A stretch of 64,000 nucleotides of DNA from Alphaproteobacteria bacterium (GTDB lineage Bacteria > Pseudomonadota > Alphaproteobacteria > TMED109). The position numbers and the translations under genes were made by a program. The stretch's first letter is position 1. Each line of letters opens with the position of its first letter. Under the pieces are notes generated by a model. The model ran no database searches and was not told where the DNA came from. It saw only the letters and a list, made by a program, of their open reading frames with translations. Location: NCBI GenBank assembly GCA_022824395.1, contig JAJDZX010000030.1, positions 124,001-188,000 on the forward strand. The letters are read 5' to 3'. Shown piece by piece: positions 4,070 to 29,809 of the stretch.

Positions 4070-6451
4070 CTATCGATGCTTCATGACGACGAGCGTAATA
4101 TCGTCATGGATTTTCTGCACCCCGATGTGCGACTTCAGATCCATGACGATGCCGTTGACGGTGTCAACGGCTGAACCGTTGCTGTTTGCCTTCACACTGT
4201 CGCAGAGGCGATCGAGACCATACAGCTCACCTTCCGAATTCTCCGCCTCGGTCACACCGTCCGTGTGAAGAATGAGGATATCACCGCTATTGAATGTCAA
4301 CTTGCGGGTACCAATGAAGGGCGCGATGTCGAACTCGAGGCCGATCGGGAAGCCGAGGTCCATGGTATCGATGCGCTCCAGGGAGCCATCACTTCGGACC
4401 ATCAAGACTTCCTCGTGCTGCCCGGTCAACGTCACTTCGTTGTCATCGTAATCCACGAACGCCAGCGTCAGGTGCTTGTCGGACTCGGTACGCTCGATAT
4501 TCTTGAAGATTGCCCGGTTCACGATTTCGAGGAACCGCTCGTTGTCCTGGTCGCCTTTCTCATAGAGAGCTCGAGCCACTGACTGAACCATCAGCATCAG
4601 CACGCCGCTCTCAAGGCCATGCCCCGTTACATCGCCGATACCTACCTTGATGCGGGAGCCATCCTGCAGCACGTCGTAGTAGTCGCCGCCAACTTCATCA
4701 GCCGGTTCCATGTAACCGGCAATCTCCAGCTTCGGTATCTGGTCCAGTTCGCTGACCCGGGGCAGCACCATCTTTTGAATCCGGTGCGCCACGTCAAGCT
4801 CGGCACCGAGACGCAGATTCTCGCTTCGAAGCTGCTCGTTAAGGGAAACAATCTCCCGGTTAGCCTCTTCGAGATTCCGCGTTCGTTCTTCCACCAGGTT
4901 CTCAAGATTCTCCGTATGGTACTGGATCTCCTGCACCATGCTGTTGAATGCGACTCCTACCTTGCCAACCTCGTCGCGCGTGGGGATCCTGACGCGCACC
5001 GAGTAGTCCTTCTGCTCCAGCCTTCGGGCCGCGCCGGCAAGGGCGCTCAAGCCAGCCGTAATGCGCCCAGATATGGCGTAAACGGCGAAGAAAACGATCA
5101 GCAGGCTGACCAGCAAGACCCCGATCTGCAAGTTATAGATGCGCGAAGTTGCATCAGCGATCCCGCCTTCGACGGCCGTCAGCAGCTGATACAACTCCTC
5201 TTCCGATACCACAAAACCGACGGTCATGGTCTCCCTGACGATACCGTCCGGATTCCACAAGTTCGCCGGGAGCATCTGCTTCTGGATGACCAGGTAGTCG
5301 GTCCCCTCGCCGTTCTCATCAAGGGTCAAGTGCTGGATCGTGACATCGCTTCCAGTCGGCAACTGCATGTCCGCAATCGCCGGATGCATGCTGTTGCGGA
5401 TTGATCGATCGATTCCCGTCACACCCTGTCCGCCCACATCGCTGGCAACCAGCCCGATAGTCTTTTCGCCGGACTCATTGATGGCGATGACATTGCCGTT
5501 CGACATCAGCAAGTAACCGAAACCGGTATCGGCCAACGTGATGCTCTCAACCAGCGAAGTCAGCTGGTCGAGCGTAATGTCGACGGCAACCATTCCGGCG
5601 ACGTCGCTGCGATCGGGCGTCCAGAGCGGATGGAAGAAACTGACGATCAGGATGCCGGTAATCGCGTCGACATAGGGCTCGGTCATCACGATATTGGATT
5701 CGACCAGCCTGGTGCTCGGGTCGGCCAGCCAAGACTGCCAACCCTCGTACACGCCAGGGAAAAAGAAATCCCAGAAATTGGGGCCTTCATTGTGACCGGG
5801 GTACAGCTTGTCGAACGTCTGGGCCTGTTCCGAATACGGCGTGGCCCTCAAGATCGAGGCGTGCTTCGGCCCCACGTAGTAGACCTGCAGTTTGGGTGCG
5901 CCGGTGTTCATGAGTGCCGGCCCCATCAAGTCGAGAAACTTGCTATCACGAATTTCCTGCGCCGTGTCCGGCAGGGGCTGGCGATTCTCATCCAGCAGGT
6001 ACCCCCAGACGCTCACCGCGGAAGGCGCACCGGGTAGATTCTGCGACCATCCGCCTTCCGTGCTGTAAACCAGCGGACTCGTCAATTCAGGGTCGGCCGC
6101 GATCGCCGCTCCGAGATCGCCCTTCACATCGGGATGATCGATCAGGAACTGCATGCCGTTGGCCAGCATCGTGACCTCCGAATGCACCCGTTCCAGCAGC
6201 AGGTCACCCTGCGCCGTCGTCATTTCGATGGAAGTTTGCAGGAACTGCTCGGTGGACTGCGTCAGACCTTCACTGATCTCCTGCCTCGCACGCTCGGACA
6301 AACGCTGCATGTTCCATATTGACACCCCGCCGGACAGTGCCAGATCGAACACCACCGCGGCGCCAACCACCAGCACAAATTTGGCGCGAAAACTGCGGAG
6401 CGAAAAGCGCCCCAGTATTGATCTGCCGGTATCGTCCTGCGCCGAGTTCAT
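4070..6451 (-). CDS. Membrane sensor phosphatase: extracytoplasmic sensor, HAMP, PP2C/SpoIIE
   Basis: A 793-residue inner-membrane protein. A first membrane segment at about 23-45 is followed by a periplasmic region of about 395 residues, probably a double Cache sensor. A second segment lies at about 442-462, then HAMP (463-516), a coiled coil (510-560) and a SpoIIE/PP2C phosphatase domain (575-793). Metal-binding motifs are intact: GGDYYD at 589-594, GDVTGHG at 606-612, HTDGVTEA at 729-736 and a late DD at 783-784. The layout resembles SiaA of Pseudomonas and RsbU-like phosphatases. It should dephosphorylate a STAS-like partner when a ligand is sensed. It overlaps the methyltransferase gene by 4 nt (ATGA), so the two are translationally coupled. 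Confidence 0.88.
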   Translation of the reverse strand: MNSAQDDTGRSILGRFSLRSFRAKFVLVVGAAVVFDLALSGGVSIWNMQRLSERARQEISEGLTQSTEQFLQTSIEMTTAQGDLLLERVHSEVTMLANGMQFLIDHPDVKGDLGAAIAADPELTSPLVYSTEGGWSQNLPGAPSAVSVWGYLLDENRQPLPDTAQEIRDSKFLDLMGPALMNTGAPKLQVYYVGPKHASILRATPYSEQAQTFDKLYPGHNEGPNFWDFFFPGVYEGWQSWLADPSTRLVESNIVMTEPYVDAITGILIVSFFHPLWTPDRSDVAGMVAVDITLDQLTSLVESITLADTGFGYLLMSNGNVIAINESGEKTIGLVASDVGGQGVTGIDRSIRNSMHPAIADMQLPTGSDVTIQHLTLDENGEGTDYLVIQKQMLPANLWNPDGIVRETMTVGFVVSEEELYQLLTAVEGGIADATSRIYNLQIGVLLVSLLIVFFAVYAISGRITAGLSALAGAARRLEQKDYSVRVRIPTRDEVGKVGVAFNSMVQEIQYHTENLENLVEERTRNLEEANREIVSLNEQLRSENLRLGAELDVAHRIQKMVLPRVSELDQIPKLEIAGYMEPADEVGGDYYDVLQDGSRIKVGIGDVTGHGLESGVLMLMVQSVARALYEKGDQDNERFLEIVNRAIFKNIERTESDKHLTLAFVDYDDNEVTLTGQHEEVLMVRSDGSLERIDTMDLGFPIGLEFDIAPFIGTRKLTFNSGDILILHTDGVTEAENSEGELYGLDRLCDSVKANSNGSAVDTVNGIVMDLKSHIGVQKIHDDITLVVMKHR

Positions 6452-9357: not shown

Positions 9358-10323
9358 ATGTCCACGATGGGTGCCGATGGCTTGACCGGTCAGGCCCAAG
9401 AGGAAGCCAAGCTGGCCCCCGCCCTGGCCGGCTTGCTCGCTGAGACCAAAGGCACGCTGGCCGAGCTGGAAGCCGAGCACGATGATCTCAAGTTGCTCTA
9501 CGAGGCGACGATCGCGCACGGAGAAGCAGTCGAGGACCAGCTCGCAGAGAGCAACATCCTGCTGCAGCGCACCCAGGCAAGGCTGGAAGAAGAGCTAAAC
9601 GAGGCCTCTCATTACGCGAGATCGATCTTGCCCGAGCCGCGCGATGAGTGGCCGAGCACGCAGTGGTATTTCGAGCCGTCCACAGAACTCGGCGGTGATT
9701 CCTTCGGCTATCACCACATCGACTCCGATCATTTTGCCATTTACTTGATTGACGTCTGCGGACACGGCGTCGGCGCTGCACTGTTGTCCGCGACCATCAT
9801 CAACGTCTTGCGGGCCCAAGCGATGTCGAGCGTCGACTTCCAGGATCCAAGCTCGGTTCTTGCGACGCTAAACGACACGTTTCCCATGGAAAATCAGAAC
9901 AACATGTTCTTCACGATCTGGTACGGCGTGCATGATCAGCGTACTGGAGAACTGCGGTACTCATCCGGAGGGCATCCGCCGGCGATCTTGCTCAGTCTCG
10001 ATCAGGAACGGTCTCCTGACGACCCTGCCGTTTCCGCAAAGCTGCTGGGCAATAAGGGCAACGTCGCGATCGGGACGTTCCCGGGTCTTCAATTCCCTGA
10101 AGCTACCACGACCATCAGGCCGGGCGATCAACTGCTGGTCTACAGTGACGGTGCCTATGAAATTCCCATTACGGATGACAAGATGCTGTCCCAGAAGGAC
10201 TTAGTCGATTTCGCCAGCACCGATGCCGGCCGGGGGCCCACGGAAATTTATCAGTGGGTGCAGGCGCATAATGGAGAAGGCCCGCTGCCGGACGACTTTT
10301 CGCTGGTGAAGGTCAACTTTTGA
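9358..10323 (+). CDS. Soluble PP2C/SpoIIE-family serine phosphatase with N-terminal coiled coil
   Basis: A 321-residue cytoplasmic phosphatase without membrane segments. Residues about 15-85 are a strongly charged, heptad-rich coiled coil and the rest is a SpoIIE/PP2C domain. Metal sites are present: ELGGDSFG, DVCGHGVGAALL (Cys in place of the usual Ser/Thr before GHG), YSDGAYE and a terminal D-D-F-S-L. It lacks its own sensor or receiver domain, so the coiled coil probably couples it to another protein. It is divergent from the STAS/GHKL operon and may be a second input that dephosphorylates the same STAS protein; this link rests on position only. Confidence 0.85.
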   Translation: MSTMGADGLTGQAQEEAKLAPALAGLLAETKGTLAELEAEHDDLKLLYEATIAHGEAVEDQLAESNILLQRTQARLEEELNEASHYARSILPEPRDEWPSTQWYFEPSTELGGDSFGYHHIDSDHFAIYLIDVCGHGVGAALLSATIINVLRAQAMSSVDFQDPSSVLATLNDTFPMENQNNMFFTIWYGVHDQRTGELRYSSGGHPPAILLSLDQERSPDDPAVSAKLLGNKGNVAIGTFPGLQFPEATTTIRPGDQLLVYSDGAYEIPITDDKMLSQKDLVDFASTDAGRGPTEIYQWVQAHNGEGPLPDDFSLVKVNF

Positions 10324-15950: not shown

Positions 15951-16520
15951 TGACTCCCTGGAGGAGCTCACGCTCCGCTGTCGCCCGTGGCGGGATCGCT
16001 GATCGCTGCCGACTATCGTGCGATCGAAGGCACGGGCTCGACACGGGACCGCGAGGTGCAGGGACAGAAGGCTGAAACCTGGCTCGCGCTGCGCGGGGGT
16101 TATACACAAAGCCGGACCGCCAAGTCGGCTCCGCCAGCTTCCCCGACGGTGGGTAACCTGGCCGCCTGGTCGGCGACCGTGGGCGATGCACCACCGGCAG
16201 CCCGCCACATTGATGAGGTGGTGTTCTTGTCGGCGGTCATTGGACCGCCGCCCGTCCTCCACGACACGCAGGCTGGCAGCCTGATTTCCCAGTACCGATA
16301 TCACATGGAGCGCTGCGGACGCCCGGCAGTGGCCGGCCGTTGGGGCACCGGTGGCCGCCCGCGAACGTCACGTTGTCTCAGCAACTTGACAAACATATAT
16401 CTCGAATATGCCTTTTGGACGGGCCCGCCGCGCACGGCGGGGATGTCCAATACTTGCGAGACCGTCGGCTGACGTTCTCCGGCACCGCAATCGCTCAAAA
16501 TCCTCTAAGGAACTGAAGAC
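15951..16520. other. Intergenic region between GST and the bufferin operon
   Basis: This 570-base divergent gap has no recognisable gene. Its right end carries an AT-rich block with a TTGACA box that probably starts the bufferin operon. Nothing else stands out. Confidence 0.5.
16386..16412 (+). promoter_or_regulatory. Possible promoter of the bufferin operon
   Basis: A perfect TTGACA at 16386-16391 is followed by an unusually AT-rich stretch and TATGCC at 16407-16412 (15-base spacing, shorter than ideal). The AT-rich block is conspicuous in this GC-rich DNA and lies 110 bases upstream of bufA. A copper-responsive or ECF-type promoter could also sit here. Confidence 0.35.
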
Positions 16521-16790
16521 ATGGCTGCTCACAAACGTACTTCCGCTGCCGTCGTAGCTGGGGCGCTGACCGCTCTTCTCGTCGCCGCGCCGGCCTCGAC
16601 CGCGCTCGCCGCCGATGGCGACATGGAAAAATGCTACGGCGTTGCCAAGGCGGGCCAGAATGACTGCGCGGCTGGCGAGGGCACGACCTGTCAAGGCACG
16701 TCGACCGTCGATGGCCAGAAGAACGCCTGGATCTACCTCCCGGCGGGCCTCTGCGAGAAATTGGTCGGCGGCAGCCTTGAGGAAGCCTGA
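16521..16790 (+). CDS. bufA: Bufferin precursor (DUF2282 family)
   Basis: An 89-residue precursor of the DUF2282 family, now known as bufferins: ribosomally made, modified peptides that bind copper in the periplasm. A long signal-like leader (1-30, ending ALA) precedes a mature part with four cysteines: [16 protein letters not shown] and G-L-C-E-K. These match the family's conserved K-C-[YF]-G and four-Cys pattern. The MNIO enzyme encoded next is expected to convert cysteines to modified forms. A Shine-Dalgarno AAGGAA lies upstream. Confidence 0.88.
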
Positions 16791-16842
16791 TCCGTTGATC
16801 TGATTCGCTGAAGCCCAGCCTTCCGGACCGGGGCAGTCGCCC

Positions 16843-17787
16843 GTGCCTGACGCGCCAGCCGTCCGGGCATCAGCTCCTGCCTCGGACCGGCCTTTGCCGG
16901 AAAGTGCCGGAATCGGCCTCAAGGCCCAGTTCTACCAGGAGGTGCTGGACACCTCCCCGCCATTGGACTGGTTCGAGGTTCATCCCGAGAACTACATGGT
17001 CGAGGGCGGGCCCCCGCTTCGGTACCTCGAGGCCATTCGCGGCAAGTACCCCCTGTCCCTGCACGGGGTCGGCATGTCGCTCGGGTCTGTCGAACCCCCC
17101 GCACGCGATCACCTTGAACATCTGTCCGGCCTGATCGATCGGTTCGAGCCCTTCGTCGTGTCCGAACACCTGTCGTGGAGCCGGACCGAAGACGCATTCC
17201 TCGCTGATCTTCTCCCGCTTCCGATGACCCGCGAGACGCTGGCAACCGTTTCGGCCAACGTGTGCCGGGCGCAGGACCACCTCGGCCGGGCTCTCCTCGT
17301 GGAGAATCCCTCGGCCTACCTCCAATTCCGCGATCAGGACCTTCCGGAACCCGAGTTTCTGAGCGAGCTGGCCCGACGGACTGGATGCGGTCTGCTGCTG
17401 GACGTGAACAACCTGTTCGTGTCGGCGTGCAACCAAGGCTTCGACCCGATCACCTGGCTGGATGCCTTCCATCTGGAAGCTGTCGAGGAGATCCACCTCG
17501 CCGGGCATGCCGTCGACCAGGCGAACGGACATAGCATCCGCGTCGACGATCACGGATCACCGGTGCCAACGGGCGTCTGGGATCTCTTCCGCACCGTCAT
17601 TCGGCGCCGCGGGCCGACACCGACGCTGATCGAGCGGGACGCCAACCTCCCGCCGCTTGCGGATCTGGTTGCCGAGGCCCGGACGGCCGTTAGCGTCATG
17701 CGCGGGACGGTCGCCGACACCGGCGACGATCGATCCCGGCCGGTCGGGGCAGGTGCCGGACCGGCCTCCTCGATCACGGCACCCTAG
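16843..17787 (+). CDS. bufB: MNIO (DUF692) iron oxygenase, bufferin-modifying enzyme
   Basis: A 314-residue TIM-barrel enzyme of the multinuclear non-heme iron-dependent oxidase family (DUF692). The characteristic motifs occur in order: F-E-V-H-P-E-N-Y, L-H-G-V-G-M-S-L-G-S, V-S-E-H-L-S-W, V-E-N-P-S-A-Y-L, L-L-D-V-N-N-L-F-V-S-A, E-I-H-L-A-G-H, D-D-H-G-S-P-V and L-I-E-R-D-A-N-L-P. They supply the His, Asp and Glu ligands. It should modify cysteines of the upstream precursor. It starts with GTG 52 bases after bufA. The last 35 residues are a disordered-looking extension. Confidence 0.92.
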   Translation: MPDAPAVRASAPASDRPLPESAGIGLKAQFYQEVLDTSPPLDWFEVHPENYMVEGGPPLRYLEAIRGKYPLSLHGVGMSLGSVEPPARDHLEHLSGLIDRFEPFVVSEHLSWSRTEDAFLADLLPLPMTRETLATVSANVCRAQDHLGRALLVENPSAYLQFRDQDLPEPEFLSELARRTGCGLLLDVNNLFVSACNQGFDPITWLDAFHLEAVEEIHLAGHAVDQANGHSIRVDDHGSPVPTGVWDLFRTVIRRRGPTPTLIERDANLPPLADLVAEARTAVSVMRGTVADTGDDRSRPVGAGAGPASSITAP

Positions 17788-17795
17788 CTTCGCTG

Positions 17796-18614
17796 TTGTC
17801 CTCCCTTCTCGCCGAAACTCAGTCGGCCTTTCGCACCGCCATGGAACAAGGGGGTGACGAGGGAATAACGAGACTGCTCGCGCAGCCCTCCTCCGGCCCT
17901 GACATCACGACGCGGCTCGACATCTATCGGAACAACATCGCCTATGCGCTGGTGAGGGCACTGGAAGCGCTCTATCCCTCTCTTCGCCGGCTCATGGGAC
18001 AGGCGTTCTTTGAACAGATCGCCTGGGACTTCGCCAGAACCCATCCCCCACCCCATGGTCGTCTGGTCGAGTACGGGTTCGAGTTTCCGGGCTTTGTATC
18101 CGGTTTTGAGGCAGCATCCGGCTACCCTTGGTTTGCCGACGTGGCCCGGCTGGAAGTGGCCTGGCATCGCGCCTATGTCGCCGCGGAGGCACCATGCCTC
18201 CCCATCAGCAAACTTGGAGCCATTCCGCCAGATCGCATGAGCATGATCGAGCTGGTCCTGCATCCGACTTGCCGATGGATGCATTCGCGTTATCCGGTGT
18301 CCAAGCTCTGGCAGCTTGGCCGCGACGAAGCCGAACCCGACGGCCCCATCGAAGTTGAGGGCGGGCCTGAATGGCTTATGGTCATACGGCCCGAAGCGGA
18401 GGTCGAGGTACGGACGCTCTCGGAAGCCGGCTACCGGTTCGGGCAGGCGTTGAGCAAGGGACTGGTATTGGGGGCGGCCTGGGAGGCCGCCTGCAGTGTG
18501 GACCCGGACTTTGATCTCCAGGGGCACCTTGCAGGATTGTTTGCGGGCGGGACGTTTACCGACTATCGGCTCGCCTCAGTGACATCTCATTCCCACGATG
18601 GAGACCGACCATGA
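17796..18614 (+). CDS. bufC: DUF2063 family MNIO partner protein
   Basis: A 272-residue protein of the DUF2063 family, the usual partner that recruits the precursor peptide to the MNIO enzyme. The conserved N-terminal helical domain is present (R-L-x-I-Y-R-N-N-I, A-L-x-x-L-Y-P-S-L-R-R-L-M-G, F-F-x-x-x-A-W-D-F-A). The most natural start is a TTG at 17796, 8 bases after bufB; an ATG at 17841 would trim conserved sequence. Its stop overlaps the DoxX start by 4 nt. Confidence 0.88.
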   Translation: MSSLLAETQSAFRTAMEQGGDEGITRLLAQPSSGPDITTRLDIYRNNIAYALVRALEALYPSLRRLMGQAFFEQIAWDFARTHPPPHGRLVEYGFEFPGFVSGFEAASGYPWFADVARLEVAWHRAYVAAEAPCLPISKLGAIPPDRMSMIELVLHPTCRWMHSRYPVSKLWQLGRDEAEPDGPIEVEGGPEWLMVIRPEAEVEVRTLSEAGYRFGQALSKGLVLGAAWEAACSVDPDFDLQGHLAGLFAGGTFTDYRLASVTSHSHDGDRP

Positions 18615-19078
18615 GTGCACAAGCGAATGGCCTGAGGCGGATCGGAACGATCGTGAACTGCACGAACGCCGTGATGTCGCGCGTTCCGGACGGGTTGCTG
18701 CAGCTTCTCGCGCGGGTGGCAATCGCGCCAACCTTCTTTCGGTCGGGACAGGCGAAGATCAGCGGCTTCTCGGTCAACGACAGCACGGTCTTTTTGTTCG
18801 AGCACGAGTTCGGGATGCCGTTTCCCGTTCTTTCGGCTCACCTCGCGGCGCTTGCGGAGAACATTCTTCCGGTCCTGCTGGTGGTCGGGTTCGCCACCAG
18901 GCTGTCAGCGCTGGCGCTGTTCGTCATGACCATCGTCATCCAGATCGTGGCGCCCCAGGGCTTCTGGACTTTCCACATTCTCTGGTTCGCAGTGCTGCTC
19001 TACGTGGTGGCGAGGGGACCCGGACCGGTGTCGGTTGATTACCTGATCGAACGGGCCTATCGGAACCGGACTGCGTAA
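18611..19078 (+). CDS. DoxX family membrane protein
   Basis: A 155-residue inner-membrane protein with about four hydrophobic segments and the DoxX-type start R-V-A-I-A-P-T-F-F-R-S-G-Q-A-K. DoxX proteins commonly close bufferin operons and are thought to take part in redox or membrane steps; the exact role is unknown. The ATGA overlap with bufC and the lack of a gap place it in the same operon. Confidence 0.85.
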   Translation: MSAQANGLRRIGTIVNCTNAVMSRVPDGLLQLLARVAIAPTFFRSGQAKISGFSVNDSTVFLFEHEFGMPFPVLSAHLAALAENILPVLLVVGFATRLSALALFVMTIVIQIVAPQGFWTFHILWFAVLLYVVARGPGPVSVDYLIERAYRNRTA

Positions 19079-19257: not shown

Positions 19258-20649
19258 CTACAGGGGGCCACCCCGGGCCTTGAGCAACGCGGCGAATTCG
19301 CGCCGCGTCTTCGGGCCAAACGTCAGGAAATGAGGGTCAGGGGCGGACCGATACTGGGCGCGCTGTTTGCCGACGCGGTCACGGCCTGCCCTCTGCCGCA
19401 CTTCCTCTGCATCGATTCCGTAAACCCTGGCCGCGTTGAGACCAAAGATCCGTGCCCGCAAGGCGTCGGTCATCGGGGCGTAGCCGTGCGCCTCCTGCAG
19501 GGCCTCGGATATCTGGAACGTGCGGAAGGCCTGGATCTGGTCCTGCGGTGAGCCGTACCAGATGCAGTCGGAGCCGTAGAGCACGTTTTCCTCGCCGATA
19601 TGCTTCACGAGCTTGCCGACCACGTGAGCGGCGCCATCAGGGTCCCGCATCAGGAACCGCCAGGTGCTGCCGAGTTCCGCGTACACGTTGGCGTTCCGGC
19701 CGATCCCGCTTTCCTCGATCGAGCGAATCAACTCGTCGACGCCCTCGCCACGGTCCGGATCATACGGCCCCTCGGACTGGCCGCTGATGAACCCTGAGTG
19801 ATAGACGAGGAAATTCACGTCGGGGAACATCCTGGCGGCCGGCCCGATATCAGTGCACAAACTGTGCTGGTAGGACCGACGGCCAAACGGCAAGCCCTTG
19901 TGCACGCAAATGTTCTTGACTCTGAGTGCGCGTGCCTTCTCGATCAGCGCGAGGCCCGGCCCGGGCTCGTGCAGGAAGAACCCCGGCGCGCCGTCGGGGC
20001 CCCATTGCGTGTACGTCTTCCAGGCGGACACCCCCCAGCGCTCGGCCAGTTCGTCCATGCCATCCAGGTCACCGTCCTGGTTGGGATTGACGCGGCCGTG
20101 AATCAGCAGGCGATGGCTTCCTTCCATGGCCTCGATGATGCGGCGGGTTTCGTCTGCCTCCTCGATCGTCAAGAGCTCCCGTTCACGATTCGACGGAATG
20201 AAGGACAGCACCATCATGTCGGTGTCGGAATCCAGGAAGATGTCCTTGATGAACGCTTCCGATCCACCAAGCCCAACCTGCCCGAGCCCGTTCTGGCCCA
20301 CGAAATGCCCCTGGACATCGAATACGAACTCGCGGCCTTCGAGGCTTTCCGCCGCCGCTTCCACGTCGAGAGCAGCGACTTGCGGAACATCGAAGAAACC
20401 GCCCGTGTGTCCCGCATCGGCATTCGCGCGGTTGAACGCGAGCAGCGCCGTCGCCGCACCGGCTGAGGACACCAGGAATGCGCGCCGGGACGATCCAAGA
20501 CGCCGGGCATGCTCGTTCACCCATTGGTGCGCCAGACGATTGGCACTGCGATTTATTGAGTCCAGCGGTACCGGAACAAACTCACCATTCGAGGTGGAAT
20601 CGACTTTGATCGGCAGTCTCGTGCCGTCCGGGTCGTTCCGAAATTTCAC
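19258..20649 (-). CDS. Tat-exported amidohydrolase family protein
   Basis: A 463-residue protein of the amidohydrolase 2 type (TIM-barrel metal hydrolase or decarboxylase). A twin-arginine signal (S-S-R-R-A-F-L followed by a hydrophobic A/L stretch, about residues 54-75) sits unusually far in, after a 50-residue N-terminal region. The first metal motif, normally D-x-H-x-H, reads D-V-Q-G-H here. The later ligands look present: I-C-V-H-K-G, V-Y-H-S-G and G-S-D-C-I-W. The reaction is not predictable. An internal start near the twin-arginine motif is possible. Confidence 0.8.
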   Translation of the reverse strand: MKFRNDPDGTRLPIKVDSTSNGEFVPVPLDSINRSANRLAHQWVNEHARRLGSSRRAFLVSSAGAATALLAFNRANADAGHTGGFFDVPQVAALDVEAAAESLEGREFVFDVQGHFVGQNGLGQVGLGGSEAFIKDIFLDSDTDMMVLSFIPSNRERELLTIEEADETRRIIEAMEGSHRLLIHGRVNPNQDGDLDGMDELAERWGVSAWKTYTQWGPDGAPGFFLHEPGPGLALIEKARALRVKNICVHKGLPFGRRSYQHSLCTDIGPAARMFPDVNFLVYHSGFISGQSEGPYDPDRGEGVDELIRSIEESGIGRNANVYAELGSTWRFLMRDPDGAAHVVGKLVKHIGEENVLYGSDCIWYGSPQDQIQAFRTFQISEALQEAHGYAPMTDALRARIFGLNAARVYGIDAEEVRQRAGRDRVGKQRAQYRSAPDPHFLTFGPKTRREFAALLKARGGPL

Positions 20650-24301: not shown

Positions 24302-25324
24302 TCACGCGCCCAGCGGGCGCGCCACTCCGGTGTTGTCCACGACGCGGGCACGCACGTTCGGCAGACCGGCTGCGACCTCCGCAGCCGCCGGTTCCGGCAT
24401 GACCGCAAATGCGGTTGCCAGCGCGTCTGCCTCGGTGGCAGTCCCGGCAATTACGGAGACGCTGCGGTGGCGATGGGCAGACCGTGCCGTGGCCGGATCG
24501 AAGATGTGATGCCACTCCCCTTTCGCGTCGAACCGCGTGCCGTAGCCGCCGGACGTGGCGATGGCCTCGTCGCTGAGCGGCAGCGTCTCAACCAGGGCCT
24601 CGCCGCCGGGGTCGGGGATCCCGATCCGCCACGGACGGCCCTCCGGGTGCTCCCCGAGCGCACGTGTCTCGCCCAGCTCCACCAGCACGTGCTGGAGGCC
24701 ACCTTGCCGGAGACGGTCGGCCACGCGGTCCGTGATGAAGCCCTGGGCGATTCCGTTCAGCGTCATGGCCATGCCGGAGCGCACAAACCGGATGGCCCGG
24801 GCCGAGGCATCCACCCCCCGCCAGTCCACGAGCGTACGGATTCGGTCCAGCGACGGCGGCGGCGGCGGCGTTCCCGCGGTGCGGAAACTCTCGGCCATGA
24901 CGTCCCAGATCGGCTGGACCGTCGGGTCGAAGGCGCCGCCGCTGAGCGCCGATACCCGGACAGATTCGTCAAGAAGCTGCACGAAGGCCTGATCGGGGCT
25001 GTCAAGACGGCCCGTGCGGTTCAGCCGCGAGATCGCCGATCCCGACCGGTGCAGGCTGAACTGGTCCTCGAAGAAATGGATGTCGTCGGCCACCCGTGCG
25101 AGCAGCCCCCGTGCATGTGCGGGATCCTCGTCGTAGAGCACGATCCGCGCCGGTGAACCCAGGGCGAGCCCGCTCCATTCCACGGGCTTGAGTTCGCGCG
25201 AACCGCCCAACAGCAGCGCACCCCCTCCCAGCGTAAGCCCGCCGGCGGTGGCCCCGAGGATGGTGATCGCGCGGCGACGGCTGACCCCGTTGGCGGCGCG
25301 CGGTGAAATACGTGGGGAAGGCAT
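24302..25324 (-). CDS. apbE: FAD:protein FMN transferase (ApbE)
   Basis: A 340-residue periplasmic enzyme that attaches FMN to Thr or Ser of target proteins. A twin-arginine signal is visible at residues 16-40 (S-R-R-R-A-I-T-I-L-G-A). ApbE motifs occur in order: F-S-L-H-R-x-G-S-x-I-S-R-L-N, G-G-A-F-D-P-T-V, N-G-I-A-Q-G-F-x-x-D, V-E-L-G-E-T, and H-H-I-F-D-P-x-T. The metal-binding late motif (I-A-G-T-A-T-E-A-D-A-L-A-T-A) is intact. It follows the RND pump gene by 6 bases, so it is probably cotranscribed with it. No flavin-acceptor protein is evident nearby. Confidence 0.93.
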   Translation of the reverse strand: MPSPRISPRAANGVSRRRAITILGATAGGLTLGGGALLLGGSRELKPVEWSGLALGSPARIVLYDEDPAHARGLLARVADDIHFFEDQFSLHRSGSAISRLNRTGRLDSPDQAFVQLLDESVRVSALSGGAFDPTVQPIWDVMAESFRTAGTPPPPPSLDRIRTLVDWRGVDASARAIRFVRSGMAMTLNGIAQGFITDRVADRLRQGGLQHVLVELGETRALGEHPEGRPWRIGIPDPGGEALVETLPLSDEAIATSGGYGTRFDAKGEWHHIFDPATARSAHRHRSVSVIAGTATEADALATAFAVMPEPAAAEVAAGLPNVRARVVDNTGVARPLGA

Positions 25325-25330
25325 GAAGTC

Positions 25331-28300
25331 CTAGACCTCCGACGGCTGGGGCGCGTGGACCGGCGGCAGCACGTCGGGTTTCGGCCCCGCGGCACGCGGC
25401 TCCGCGGCCCTGCTCATTTCACCAGAGACAAAGATCCGCAGCATGGGCGGCACAATAATCAAAGTGATCACAGCTGACAGCGTCAGGCCTCCGACCACGA
25501 CCGAACCTAACCCGCGATAGAGCTCCGATCCCGCCCCCGGGAAGAGGACCAGGGGCATCATCCCGGCGACCGTGGTCAGCGTGGACATGAAAATCGGGCG
25601 CACCCGGTTCCGGGTCGCCTCGACAATCGCCGCGCGCGGTTGCAGGCCCTCTTCGCGGATGTGCAGCAACGACTGGTGCACGAGCAGGATGGCATTGTTC
25701 ACCACGATGCCGATCAGGATGACGAATCCCAACATGGTCAGCATGTCGAGTGGCTGCACCGTGTAGAAGTTCAGAACCCACAGGCCGATGACTCCGCCCG
25801 CCGTCGCCGGAGGCACGGACAGCATGATCACGAACGGATAGAGGAAGCTGGAGAACAGGACCGCCATCAGCAGATAGACGATCGCCACCGCCACAATGAG
25901 ATTGCCCACCATCGCGTTCCACGTCTGGGTGAGCTCGTCCGCGGTTCCGGATATCTCGATCTTGACGCCCGGCGGCAGCCCCTGCGCCTCAAGCGGGGCG
26001 ACAACCTCGGCGGCAACCGTCTCGATTGCCGCCTCGAGCGGGATCTGGTCAGAGGGCCGCAGCTGGAGCGTAATCGTGCGTTCCCGCTCGATGTGCCGGA
26101 TTTCCGTGGGGCCGGACGTCACCAGGACATCCGCCACCGATCTCACCGGGAGGATCTCGCCGCTCTGGGTCACGACCGGAAGGGTCTCGATGCCCTGCGT
26201 GTGGTCGATGTCGTCCTGAGTACCCTGCAGCGTCAGGTCAAGCCGTTCGGAGTTGACCGTGACTTCCGCGACCCGGAGCCCGGAATTGAAGGCGTCCACA
26301 CTCATGGCGAGTTCGCGTGCCGTCACACCGTTGTCGGACAGGCGCACCCGGTCCGGACGAACCTGCACCTCGGGCGACCCGAGGTCGAGACCGGGGATGG
26401 GACGCATCTGATTCCCCTGGTCGCGCGGGAATGCCCGGCCGATCAGGCCGGCGGTCTGCTGCGCAACGGCCACCACGTCTTCGAGCGTCGGCCCCCCGAT
26501 ATCGATGTCGATCGCTCGACCGCCCCCGAAACCACGCTGAAACAGGCTTGGCTGGGTAAAGAAGCCGAACGTGCCCGGTTCGCCGAACAACGAGCGCGTC
26601 AGCACCGGAATGAGCTCGCGCACCCGCGTTTCCTGAATCGCGCTCGCGCCGAAGAAGGTCCGGCCGTCACGGATGGCCACGAAGAAGTAATTCCTAATCT
26701 TGGGCGGCTGGCCCGGCTCAGCCTCGGGACCCGTTTCACTGGCCCAGAGGGGCCGGACCGGCACCTCCACCCGCTCGGCAATCTCGGTCAGGGTCTCGAG
26801 GTTGTAGCCTGGCGGCGGGAGCATGACGCCAAAGATCAGGTTCCGGTTGCCTTCGGGCAGGTACTCCAGCTTCGGCAGCAGCTGCCAGCTCACGAACAAC
26901 GCCACCGTCGCGACGCTCAGCGCGATGGCAGCCGACGCGATCCGCGAACGGAGCACGAAGCCCACGTACCCGGTGAAAAAGCGGGCGATGAGCCGGGGAA
27001 TCCAGTCGATGGGGCCGAGGCTCACGCGACGGTACCCTCGGCCCGGGCCAAGCAGCCAGGTGGCGAGGGCCGGAATCACCGTCACCGAAACGAGCAGGGA
27101 CATCAGGACGGCCACCGAGATCGCCACGGCAATATCGCGGAACAACTGGCCCGCCTCGAGTTCCATGATCAGGATCGGGATGAAGACCAGCACCGTGGTG
27201 AGGGCGGACACCATCACGGCCGACCAAACCTGGCGGGTGCCGTCGTACGCCGCCTCGGCACCCGTTCGGCCGCCCTCCCGGAGCCGGTAGATGTTCTCCA
27301 GCACGACGATGGCCGCGTCGACCACCATGCCGACGGCAAACGCGATCCCGGCCAAGGAGATCACGTTGAGAGACCGGCCCAACGCGGCCATTGCCACGAA
27401 GGACGCCACCACCGAGACGGGGATCGCCAGCCCAATAATCACCGTCGCGCGCCAGGAGCGAAGGAACAGCAACAGCACCACCACGGCGAGCAGGCCGCCG
27501 ATCCAGATGTTCTGTCGGACCAGCTCGATCGCCGAATCGATGTAGATGGTTTCGTCGTAGACCTGCTCCATAAGGAGGCCCACGCTGGGCAACGCGAATT
27601 CGTTGAGCTCGGTGATCGCTTCCCGCACCCCGTGCATCGTGTCGATGATGTTCGCGCCGCTCTGGCGCAATGCGTTCACAGCCAGGGCCGACTCGCCGAG
27701 AAACCGGATGTCGGCCCGCGGGGTCTTGTAGCCAAAGCCCACGGTCGCGATGTCGCCGACCCGGGTGCGCCCGATCCGACCGGATTCGGTTTCATCGGTC
27801 ACAAGCACGACATCCCGGACTTGTTCCGGGGTCTGGAGCTCGCCCTCGGCCCGCACCACGTACCGGCGCTTGCCCTCGTCGACATCCCCGGCGGACACCG
27901 AGGCGTTGGCCAGCCGCAGCGAATCCACCACCGCCGGGACTGTGAGACGGTGCGTGGCCAGCTGCTCCGGCCGCACGGTGACCTGCAGCTCGCGCTCCGT
28001 GCCGCCATACAGATTGGTCCGGGCAACGCCGGGCACCCGTTCCAGACGGTCCTGGATCACGTCCTTGACGAAGTCGCCGTAGGTCGAGATGGGGCGCTCG
28101 TTGCCCTGGGTGCGCGTGAGAACGAACCAAGCGACCGGATTATCGTCGAGGCCGGCGGTATCGAGCTGCGGTTCGCCGGCATCATCCGGGTAGTCATCGA
28201 TCTGGTTGAGGCGGTTGGAGACAAGGAGCAGCGCCCGGTCCATGTTGATGCCGACGTTGAACTCCAAGCGCACCTCGGCCTGCCCGTCGCGCGAGGTGCT

Positions 28301-28543
28301 CTCCATGCGTTCGAGCCCCTCCAGCCCCCGCAGCACTTCCTCCTGACGATTGACGATCTCGCGCTCGATTTCGTAAGGGCTGGCGCCGTACCACCAGGTG
28401 GTCACCGAAATCACCGGCGTAAACACGTCGGGGGCCAGCTGGATCGGGATGCGGGTGAGGGCCAGAAAGCCCAGCACCACGATCATGATGACGAGCGCGA
28501 GAACCGCGATCGGCTTCTCGATCGAGAGGCGGATGAGGTTCAT
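25331..28543 (-). CDS. RND efflux transporter, inner-membrane pump (HAE1-like)
   Basis: A 1070-residue proton-driven efflux pump. It has the 12-segment RND plan with an N-terminal segment after N-L-I-R-L-S-I-E-K-P, two large periplasmic porter/docking regions, and the G-x-x-V-D-A-A-I-V-V-L-E-N motif in the fourth membrane segment with the usual Asp. The sequence resembles the divergent HAE1/AcrB-type pumps of proteobacteria. Its substrate range is unknown. It shares a 4-nt ATGA overlap with the membrane-fusion gene; an outer-membrane channel gene is not present here. Confidence 0.92.
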   Translation of the reverse strand: MNLIRLSIEKPIAVLALVIMIVVLGFLALTRIPIQLAPDVFTPVISVTTWWYGASPYEIEREIVNRQEEVLRGLEGLERMESTSRDGQAEVRLEFNVGINMDRALLLVSNRLNQIDDYPDDAGEPQLDTAGLDDNPVAWFVLTRTQGNERPISTYGDFVKDVIQDRLERVPGVARTNLYGGTERELQVTVRPEQLATHRLTVPAVVDSLRLANASVSAGDVDEGKRRYVVRAEGELQTPEQVRDVVLVTDETESGRIGRTRVGDIATVGFGYKTPRADIRFLGESALAVNALRQSGANIIDTMHGVREAITELNEFALPSVGLLMEQVYDETIYIDSAIELVRQNIWIGGLLAVVVLLLFLRSWRATVIIGLAIPVSVVASFVAMAALGRSLNVISLAGIAFAVGMVVDAAIVVLENIYRLREGGRTGAEAAYDGTRQVWSAVMVSALTTVLVFIPILIMELEAGQLFRDIAVAISVAVLMSLLVSVTVIPALATWLLGPGRGYRRVSLGPIDWIPRLIARFFTGYVGFVLRSRIASAAIALSVATVALFVSWQLLPKLEYLPEGNRNLIFGVMLPPPGYNLETLTEIAERVEVPVRPLWASETGPEAEPGQPPKIRNYFFVAIRDGRTFFGASAIQETRVRELIPVLTRSLFGEPGTFGFFTQPSLFQRGFGGGRAIDIDIGGPTLEDVVAVAQQTAGLIGRAFPRDQGNQMRPIPGLDLGSPEVQVRPDRVRLSDNGVTARELAMSVDAFNSGLRVAEVTVNSERLDLTLQGTQDDIDHTQGIETLPVVTQSGEILPVRSVADVLVTSGPTEIRHIERERTITLQLRPSDQIPLEAAIETVAAEVVAPLEAQGLPPGVKIEISGTADELTQTWNAMVGNLIVAVAIVYLLMAVLFSSFLYPFVIMLSVPPATAGGVIGLWVLNFYTVQPLDMLTMLGFVILIGIVVNNAILLVHQSLLHIREEGLQPRAAIVEATRNRVRPIFMSTLTTVAGMMPLVLFPGAGSELYRGLGSVVVGGLTLSAVITLIIVPPMLRIFVSGEMSRAAEPRAAGPKPDVLPPVHAPQPSEV

Positions 28544-29736
28544 TGGGTGGTTTCTTGCGCGCCGTCCGACGGCGCGTCGGCCTTCGCGACCGCATCGGAG
28601 TCTCCGCCCTCCCCGCCGTCGGCGGGCGGCGGCGCCACAGCGACCTCCTGACCCGGCAGCAGGCGCTCGTTTCCGCGCACGACCGCAACGTCGCCGGGCT
28701 GCACGCCAGCCAGCACCACGAACCGGTTGCCCACCGCTTCGCCCAACTGGACTGGGCGTACCTCTGCCTTGCCGTCGACGACGACGTACACCACCGAGAT
28801 GCCCCGCCGCTGCAGGATGGCATCCTTATGGACCGTCGGCAGCACAGCGGTGTCGCTGATGGGAACGTGCACCGTAACACCCTCGCCGATCGGCGGGATG
28901 CTCGTCAGCTCGCCGAGTTCCGGAACCAGTCGCACCCGCCGCGTGCGGGTCCGCGGATTCTCGACCGTACCGACCGCGCGCACCGTCGTCCCGATCGAAT
29001 CGCCGGACGCGCGCGTCACCTCGATCAGGCTACCCGGGCTCAGCGCCGCGACCCGTAGCGACGGGACGTCCGCCTCGACCTCGAGGGCCTTCTCGCTGAC
29101 CAGCGTGACCACCGGCCCACCGGGCTGCACGGCCTCGCCGAGATCCGCATGGCGTTCCTCGACCACTCCGTCGAACGGTGCCACAACGGTGCCGCGCGAG
29201 AAGTCATCCTCTGCGGTATCCAGCCGTGCATTGGCCTCTTCGAGCGCTGCCAGGGCCACCTGAACCTGCGCCGCGGCAATGTCCGCTTCGCCCCGTGCGT
29301 CGTCTCGCTGCGCCTGACTGAACGCCGTGGATTCACGCAGGCCCTCGGCCCGCTCCAACCGCCGCTGGGCCAGGTCCGAGCGGGCTCGCGCCACGGCCAG
29401 CCCCGCCTCGCTCTGCGCGACGCTGGCCTTGGCCTGCTGCACCTGCCAGCGCAGTCGTTCGATATCGAGCACGGCGATGACGTCGCCCTCGGCCAGCCGG
29501 TCGCCGATGTTGACAGGAATCTCGGTCACGTGGCTCGCGAGCAGCGCCGGTACGACAGCCTCGAACAGGGTCACGAAGCGGCCGATGGTCGGAGCGGTCT
29601 GGTCGACCGCTTCCGCGGTCACTTTGTCGGTTCCCACGACTGCCGGCTGCTGCGCCAAGGCCGGCGCCACCACCCACACCAACGCCGCGGCCGCGAGCCA
29701 GCAGCGACCGGTTCCTGCGACACACCGAATCCACAT
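28540..29736 (-). CDS. RND efflux membrane-fusion (periplasmic adaptor) protein
   Basis: A 398-residue adaptor that links the pump to an outer-membrane channel. After a signal peptide (cleavage near A-L-A-Q-Q) comes a lipoyl half-motif (I-P-V-N-I-G-D-R-L-A-E-G-D-V-I-A), a long alpha-hairpin rich in Ala, Gln and Arg (about 105-185), a second lipoyl half (V-A-P-F-D-G-V-V) and beta-barrel and membrane-proximal domains. I chose the ATG at 29736; GTG and TTG codons just upstream are alternatives. The tail is Ala/Asp-rich. Confidence 0.9.
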   Translation of the reverse strand: MWIRCVAGTGRCWLAAAALVWVVAPALAQQPAVVGTDKVTAEAVDQTAPTIGRFVTLFEAVVPALLASHVTEIPVNIGDRLAEGDVIAVLDIERLRWQVQQAKASVAQSEAGLAVARARSDLAQRRLERAEGLRESTAFSQAQRDDARGEADIAAAQVQVALAALEEANARLDTAEDDFSRGTVVAPFDGVVEERHADLGEAVQPGGPVVTLVSEKALEVEADVPSLRVAALSPGSLIEVTRASGDSIGTTVRAVGTVENPRTRTRRVRLVPELGELTSIPPIGEGVTVHVPISDTAVLPTVHKDAILQRRGISVVYVVVDGKAEVRPVQLGEAVGNRFVVLAGVQPGDVAVVRGNERLLPGQEVAVAPPPADGGEGGDSDAVAKADAPSDGAQETTQ

Positions 29737-29809
29737 CACGAGCAAACCCCTACTTCACGACACGCGCGGGAGCGAAGACGTCGCGCCCGGATCCGCCACG
29801 TGCCCATCG

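Follow-up and report, generated by a model that had tools for sequence, protein, structure and literature searches.

Buf1 operons have been catalogued in thousands (PMC12452194), so the remark in the initial annotation of the present locus that few bufferins have been characterised is fair for their chemistry, but not for the operons themselves. In the Buf1 peptide that has been characterised, the modification is on the two central cysteines, and a disulphide bond joins the first to the last (PMC12452194); enzymes of the MNIO class convert cysteine to 5-thiooxazole with the loss of four hydrogens each (PMC12452194, PMC12668002). Characterised relatives have a partner protein with an RRE domain and a precursor that bears a Sec signal, and they sequester copper in the periplasm (PMC12452194, PMC12668002, PMC13419390).

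The window analysed here is a stretch of 64,000 nucleotides from the genome of an uncultivated alphaproteobacterium, and positions 16521–19078 of its + strand hold bufA-bufB-bufC-bufD, a full bufferin operon of the Buf1 type. The initial annotation had proposed a complete bufferin operon here, and its coordinates, strand, gene order and content (precursor, MNIO enzyme, DUF2063 partner and DoxX protein) proved exact; the family models for all four genes, the iron ligands of the enzyme, the fold of the partner and synteny agree with that reading. The features are as follows:

16390–16412, + strand: 23-bp block CAAACATATATCTCGnnTATGCC, 108 bp upstream of bufA, from alignment of upstream regions
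16521–16790, + strand: bufA, Buf1 (DUF2282) bufferin precursor, 89 aa (PF10048, 2.8e-26)
16843–17787, + strand: bufB, MNIO bufferin maturase, 314 aa, GTG start (PF05114, MbnB_TglH_ChrH, 4e-101; NF050167)
17796–18614, + strand: bufC, DUF2063 plus RRE-like partner (PME type 1), 272 aa, TTG start (PF09836, 1.3e-18)
18611–19078, + strand: bufD, DoxX-family membrane protein, 155 aa (PF07681, 5.8e-18)

The curated Pfam cut-offs for DUF2282, MbnB_TglH_ChrH, DUF2063 and DoxX are exceeded by BufA, BufB, BufC and BufD alike, and the MNIO and DUF2282 families have one member each in the whole genome. The genes had been described as having coupled starts, which holds for bufC-bufD, where the two frames overlap by 4 nt (ATGA), but not for bufA-bufB or bufB-bufC, which are separated by 52 bp and 8 bp, respectively. 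The GTG start of bufB is supported by its relatives, which have ATG at the same position and a bufA-bufB gap that is also 52–53 bp.

Since MNIO enzymes of one superfamily make several kinds of product, the operon might belong to another class (methanobactin, pearlin, oxazolin or aminopyruvatide) and not be a Buf1 bufferin operon at all, and BufB does match the HvfB, ApyH, MbnB and ChrH models of NCBIfam weakly. The bufferin maturase model NF050167 (MNIO_BufB, “MNIO family bufferin maturase”) gives 369 bits against a cut-off of 310, and this cut-off is the only one of the set that BufB passes: the HvfB model gives 228.5 bits against 360, and the ApyH, MbnB and ChrH scores lie far under their respective cut-offs. 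The precursor is likewise a DUF2282 protein and not of the MbnA type; the EGKCG repeats that, with an HvfB-type enzyme, mark an oxazolin/HvfA operon are absent from BufA, and the partner is a DUF2063 protein with an RRE-like domain. On these NCBIfam cut-offs and the precursor type the other MNIO classes were rejected, and we regard such an assignment as very improbable.

Among solved structures, BufB is closest to the Histophilus MNIO protein 3BWW (4.9e-39). All nine iron ligands are kept in BufB as H74, H109, E154, D187, N190, H218, D235, H237 and E264, the positions having been matched by motif to TglH, HvfB and 3BWW (and by motif only for the pairing of H74 with His71); the corresponding TglH ligands are His71, His107, Glu151, Asp184, Asn187, His216, Asp229, His231 and Glu258 (PMC10880893). 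In HvfB, N175, D242 and H244 are essential for activity (PMC13419390), and BufB has the same residues at the equivalent positions.

A sequence search of solved structures gave no match for BufC, and its AlphaFold model (pLDDT 87.6) was compared with known folds. Two MNIO partner proteins, 3DEE (Z 14.2 over 193 residues) and TglI (Z 13.1 over 229 residues), stand well above the remaining structural matches. The C-terminal part of the model (about residues 151–259) aligns with the RRE proteins TbiB1, ThcOx and lasso B1 (5V1U, 5LQ4 and 6JX3) at Z 6–7, the value for TbiB1 being 7.0 over residues 153–257. From the model this domain appears to be RRE-like; Z values of 6–7 taken alone denote a weak likeness of fold, and here they agree with the family assignment. 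A DoxX gene is usual in Buf1 clusters without being required there. BufD has hydrophobic segments and gives 70.6 bits with NF050144 (HvfX family), under the cut-off of 80; both BufC and BufD score under the NCBIfam HvfC and HvfX cut-offs, respectively, which belong to models built on the oxazolin branch.

The precursor was said at the outset to have a signal-like leader and four cysteines. Its N-terminus, with a KR n-region, a hydrophobic stretch at residues 7–31 and an ALA-A site, fits a Sec-like signal of about residues 1–30, and the cysteines lie at residues 38, 49, 57 and 78 and are invariant across 20 BufA sequences. The K-C-Y-G motif and three further cysteines singled out in the initial annotation are present (K37-C38-Y39-G40), but the stress laid on the cysteine of this motif is probably misplaced because C38 is the first cysteine, predicted to form the disulphide, and by analogy with the characterised peptide it is probably not one of the modified ones. 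BufA has no sequence match among solved structures, and its AlphaFold model (pLDDT 50.5) is of too low confidence to judge the outer disulphide. With cleavage after residue 30 the computed mature mass is 5979.70 Da for the unmodified, reduced peptide, 5977.68 Da for one with the disulphide only and 5969.62 Da for one with two thiooxazoles and one disulphide.

The mechanism that we propose takes its chemistry, its modified cysteines, its export step, its copper binding and its function in copper stress from characterised homologues. BufA would be synthesised with its Sec signal sequence, and in the cytoplasm the RRE-like domain of BufC would present it to the O2-using iron enzyme BufB. BufB would take four hydrogens from each of C49 and C57 to form 5-thiooxazole rings. 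The modified peptide would then be exported by Sec and cleaved near residue 30, after which C38 and C78 would close as a disulphide, and in the periplasm it would bind copper and buffer its excess; BufD would act as a membrane accessory. The peptide had been called secreted; on the analogy of its relatives we expect it instead to be periplasmic and not released from the cell.

Twenty-seven relatives of BufB were found in genome contigs, with bufA, bufB, bufC and bufD together in almost all; bufA is placed after bufB in one locus (L023), and three others (L032, L034 and L037) are truncated or show no match for bufD. The four-gene set recurs in Brevundimonas, Hyphomonas, Novosphingobium and Candidatus Endobugula. 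Within the genus the flanks are retained as well, with genes for a PotC-like permease and a GST-like protein upstream and an amidohydrolase gene downstream, followed by a TorF-like porin gene where the locus reaches that far. The operon is present in all seven genus genomes, and bufB was found in none of the family's other 21 genomes, which are smaller and in many cases incomplete. Comparison with two relatives (dS 0.19–0.93) gave dN/dS values of about 0.04–0.23 for the four genes, all of which are thus under purifying selection. Chance open reading frames are ruled out by the family matches, by these dN/dS values and by the retention of the gene set in distant bacteria. That the operon is a decayed or unexpressed remnant could be entertained from one relative (L016) in which bufB seemed to be split, yet all four frames here are uninterrupted and show purifying selection, each of the seven genus genomes retains the operon, and the apparent split is a scaffold gap filled with N; we give this possibility practically no weight. 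The splits in L009, L010 and L016 were accordingly rejected as biological, the N-filled gap being flanked by a repeated contig end (in L016, from SB0662_bin_7, the N run between the duplicated contig ends is at 4533–4632).

Gene content, order, families, iron ligands, cysteines, partner fold and selection are thus established, and the reading as a bufferin operon is supported by family models, iron ligands, partner fold and synteny. Judged from its sequence, the operon is an ordinary, canonical Buf1 system of a kind already known. Taken as one explanation, a canonical Buf1 operon working by the proposed route of thiooxazole formation, export and copper buffering is in our estimation highly probable, and no finding speaks directly against it.

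Upstream of bufA, an alignment of six orthologous upstream regions shows the conserved block CAAACATATATCTCGnnTATGCC: 21 of its 23 columns are invariant, as against 28% of the other columns, and in 5,000 column shuffles the highest number of invariant columns was 18. It occurs once per genome, upstream of bufA, in all seven genus genomes (≤3 mismatches), its reversed control has no match in any of them, and its chance expectation within the window is 0.00. The block was not found upstream of bufA in Brevundimonas-type loci. The two ends of the block show partial self-complementarity, with CAAAC...GTTTG in most relatives, which would suit a promoter with an operator; on sequence grounds the block is a probable promoter or operator of the bufferin operon, possibly a dedicated one. 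Looser matches (CATAAATCTCGTTCATG, in 6/7 genomes) looked like regulon-forming second copies and were set aside because the copy in the organism’s own genome sits within an amidohydrolase-like coding sequence. An Rfam search of the leader gave no structured-RNA match.

NrsF (PF06532) was not detected in this genome (G000, 92.85% complete) by a search that detected the Caulobacter control, so regulation probably differs from that in Caulobacter. Only three sigma-70 region 2 proteins are encoded in the genome, and the operon holds no sigma-factor gene; control of the Caulobacter type (ECF sigma factor plus NrsF) is unlikely.

The genus setting bears on copper. The copper P-type ATPase model TIGR01511 matches in only two of the seven genus genomes and in all 14 control genomes, and the general P-type ATPase domain (PF00122) was found in 2/28 genomes of the family; incompleteness of the genus MAGs, which are 92–97% complete, does not readily account for the missing ATPases in five of them. 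Each of the seven genus genomes has one RND pump over the heavy-metal-efflux cut-off, and no copA-type multicopper oxidase was found at cut-off. This suggests that the bufferin and the RND pump may carry much of the copper defence of the genus.

A bufferin system could nonetheless serve mainly against another metal, such as gold, zinc or mercury, or against a stress such as oxidative stress: fusions with MerC and functions other than copper handling have been noted for bufferins (PMC12452194), GIG operons respond to gold as well as copper (PMC5413113), the genes next to the operon (GST-like, amidohydrolase, TorF-like porin and DUF1499) are not copper genes, and the regulatory route of Caulobacter would not hold in a genome that lacks NrsF. 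Against this, the characterised thiooxazole peptides in the cited literature all bind copper, and the core of the operon is shared with Buf1 systems of the tested kind, so that we consider a main role other than copper improbable and keep to copper buffering. A more specific proposal is that the genus bufferin is a core copper defence retained where P-type copper export was lost (7/7 versus 2/7 genomes) and is also governed, through the single genomic 23-bp site, by a dedicated regulator and not by SigF/NrsF; we advance this two-part proposal tentatively, as it is on balance doubtful.

Other features of the window were seen in passing. An AcrB-type RND pump, an HlyD/CusB-like membrane-fusion protein and an ApbE-like protein lie in a row at 24302–29745 (− strand), about 5 kb downstream of the operon, and this pump is under the heavy-metal-efflux cut-off. 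The neighbouring amidohydrolase-like gene (19258–20649, − strand) has a counterpart in the same genome (L045:2729–4756, − strand) with a similar N-terminal layout (Tat-like SRRAFL/SRRAFM), and both sit in genus-conserved places. SpoIIE-type phosphatase proteins, one of them with HAMP and Cache-like sensor domains, are encoded at 4070–6451 (− strand) and 9358–10323 (+ strand), in a part of the window with lower GC (57–60%, against about 65–73% elsewhere).

The analysis confirms Buf1 operons in an uncultivated alphaproteobacterial genus and adds a further clean set of sequences. The conserved upstream element, which is specific to the bufferin operon, might be a way to find a regulator not described before, and this genus, with its bufferins kept mostly without copper P-type ATPases, would be a useful natural setting in which to study what bufferins do by themselves.

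Among known systems, oxazolin (HvfABCX, Haemophilus) and fontiphorin, the captophorins (PMC12668002), likewise combine an MNIO enzyme, a DUF2063-RRE partner and a DoxX protein, and 5-thiooxazole is expected in them too; their precursors have EGKCG repeats, whereas the precursor here has a DUF2282 domain. The Buf1 operons of Brevundimonas, Hyphomonas, Novosphingobium and Endobugula (L017–L036) have the same four genes, with bufB 42–55% and bufC only 23–32% identical, and in them bufA and bufB often overlap or nearly touch, in contrast to the 52 bp between them here. Caulobacter vibrioides bufA1B1C1D1 (Leprevost et al. 2024 PNAS), as far as it is described in PMC12452194 and PMC13419390, has the same four-cysteine precursor family, enzyme family, DUF2063-RRE partner, DoxX protein and gene order; set against that description, the present operon differs in its genome, where NrsF was not detected, in having no sigma-factor gene, in its genus-specific 23-bp upstream block and in a BufB with short N- and C-terminal extensions.
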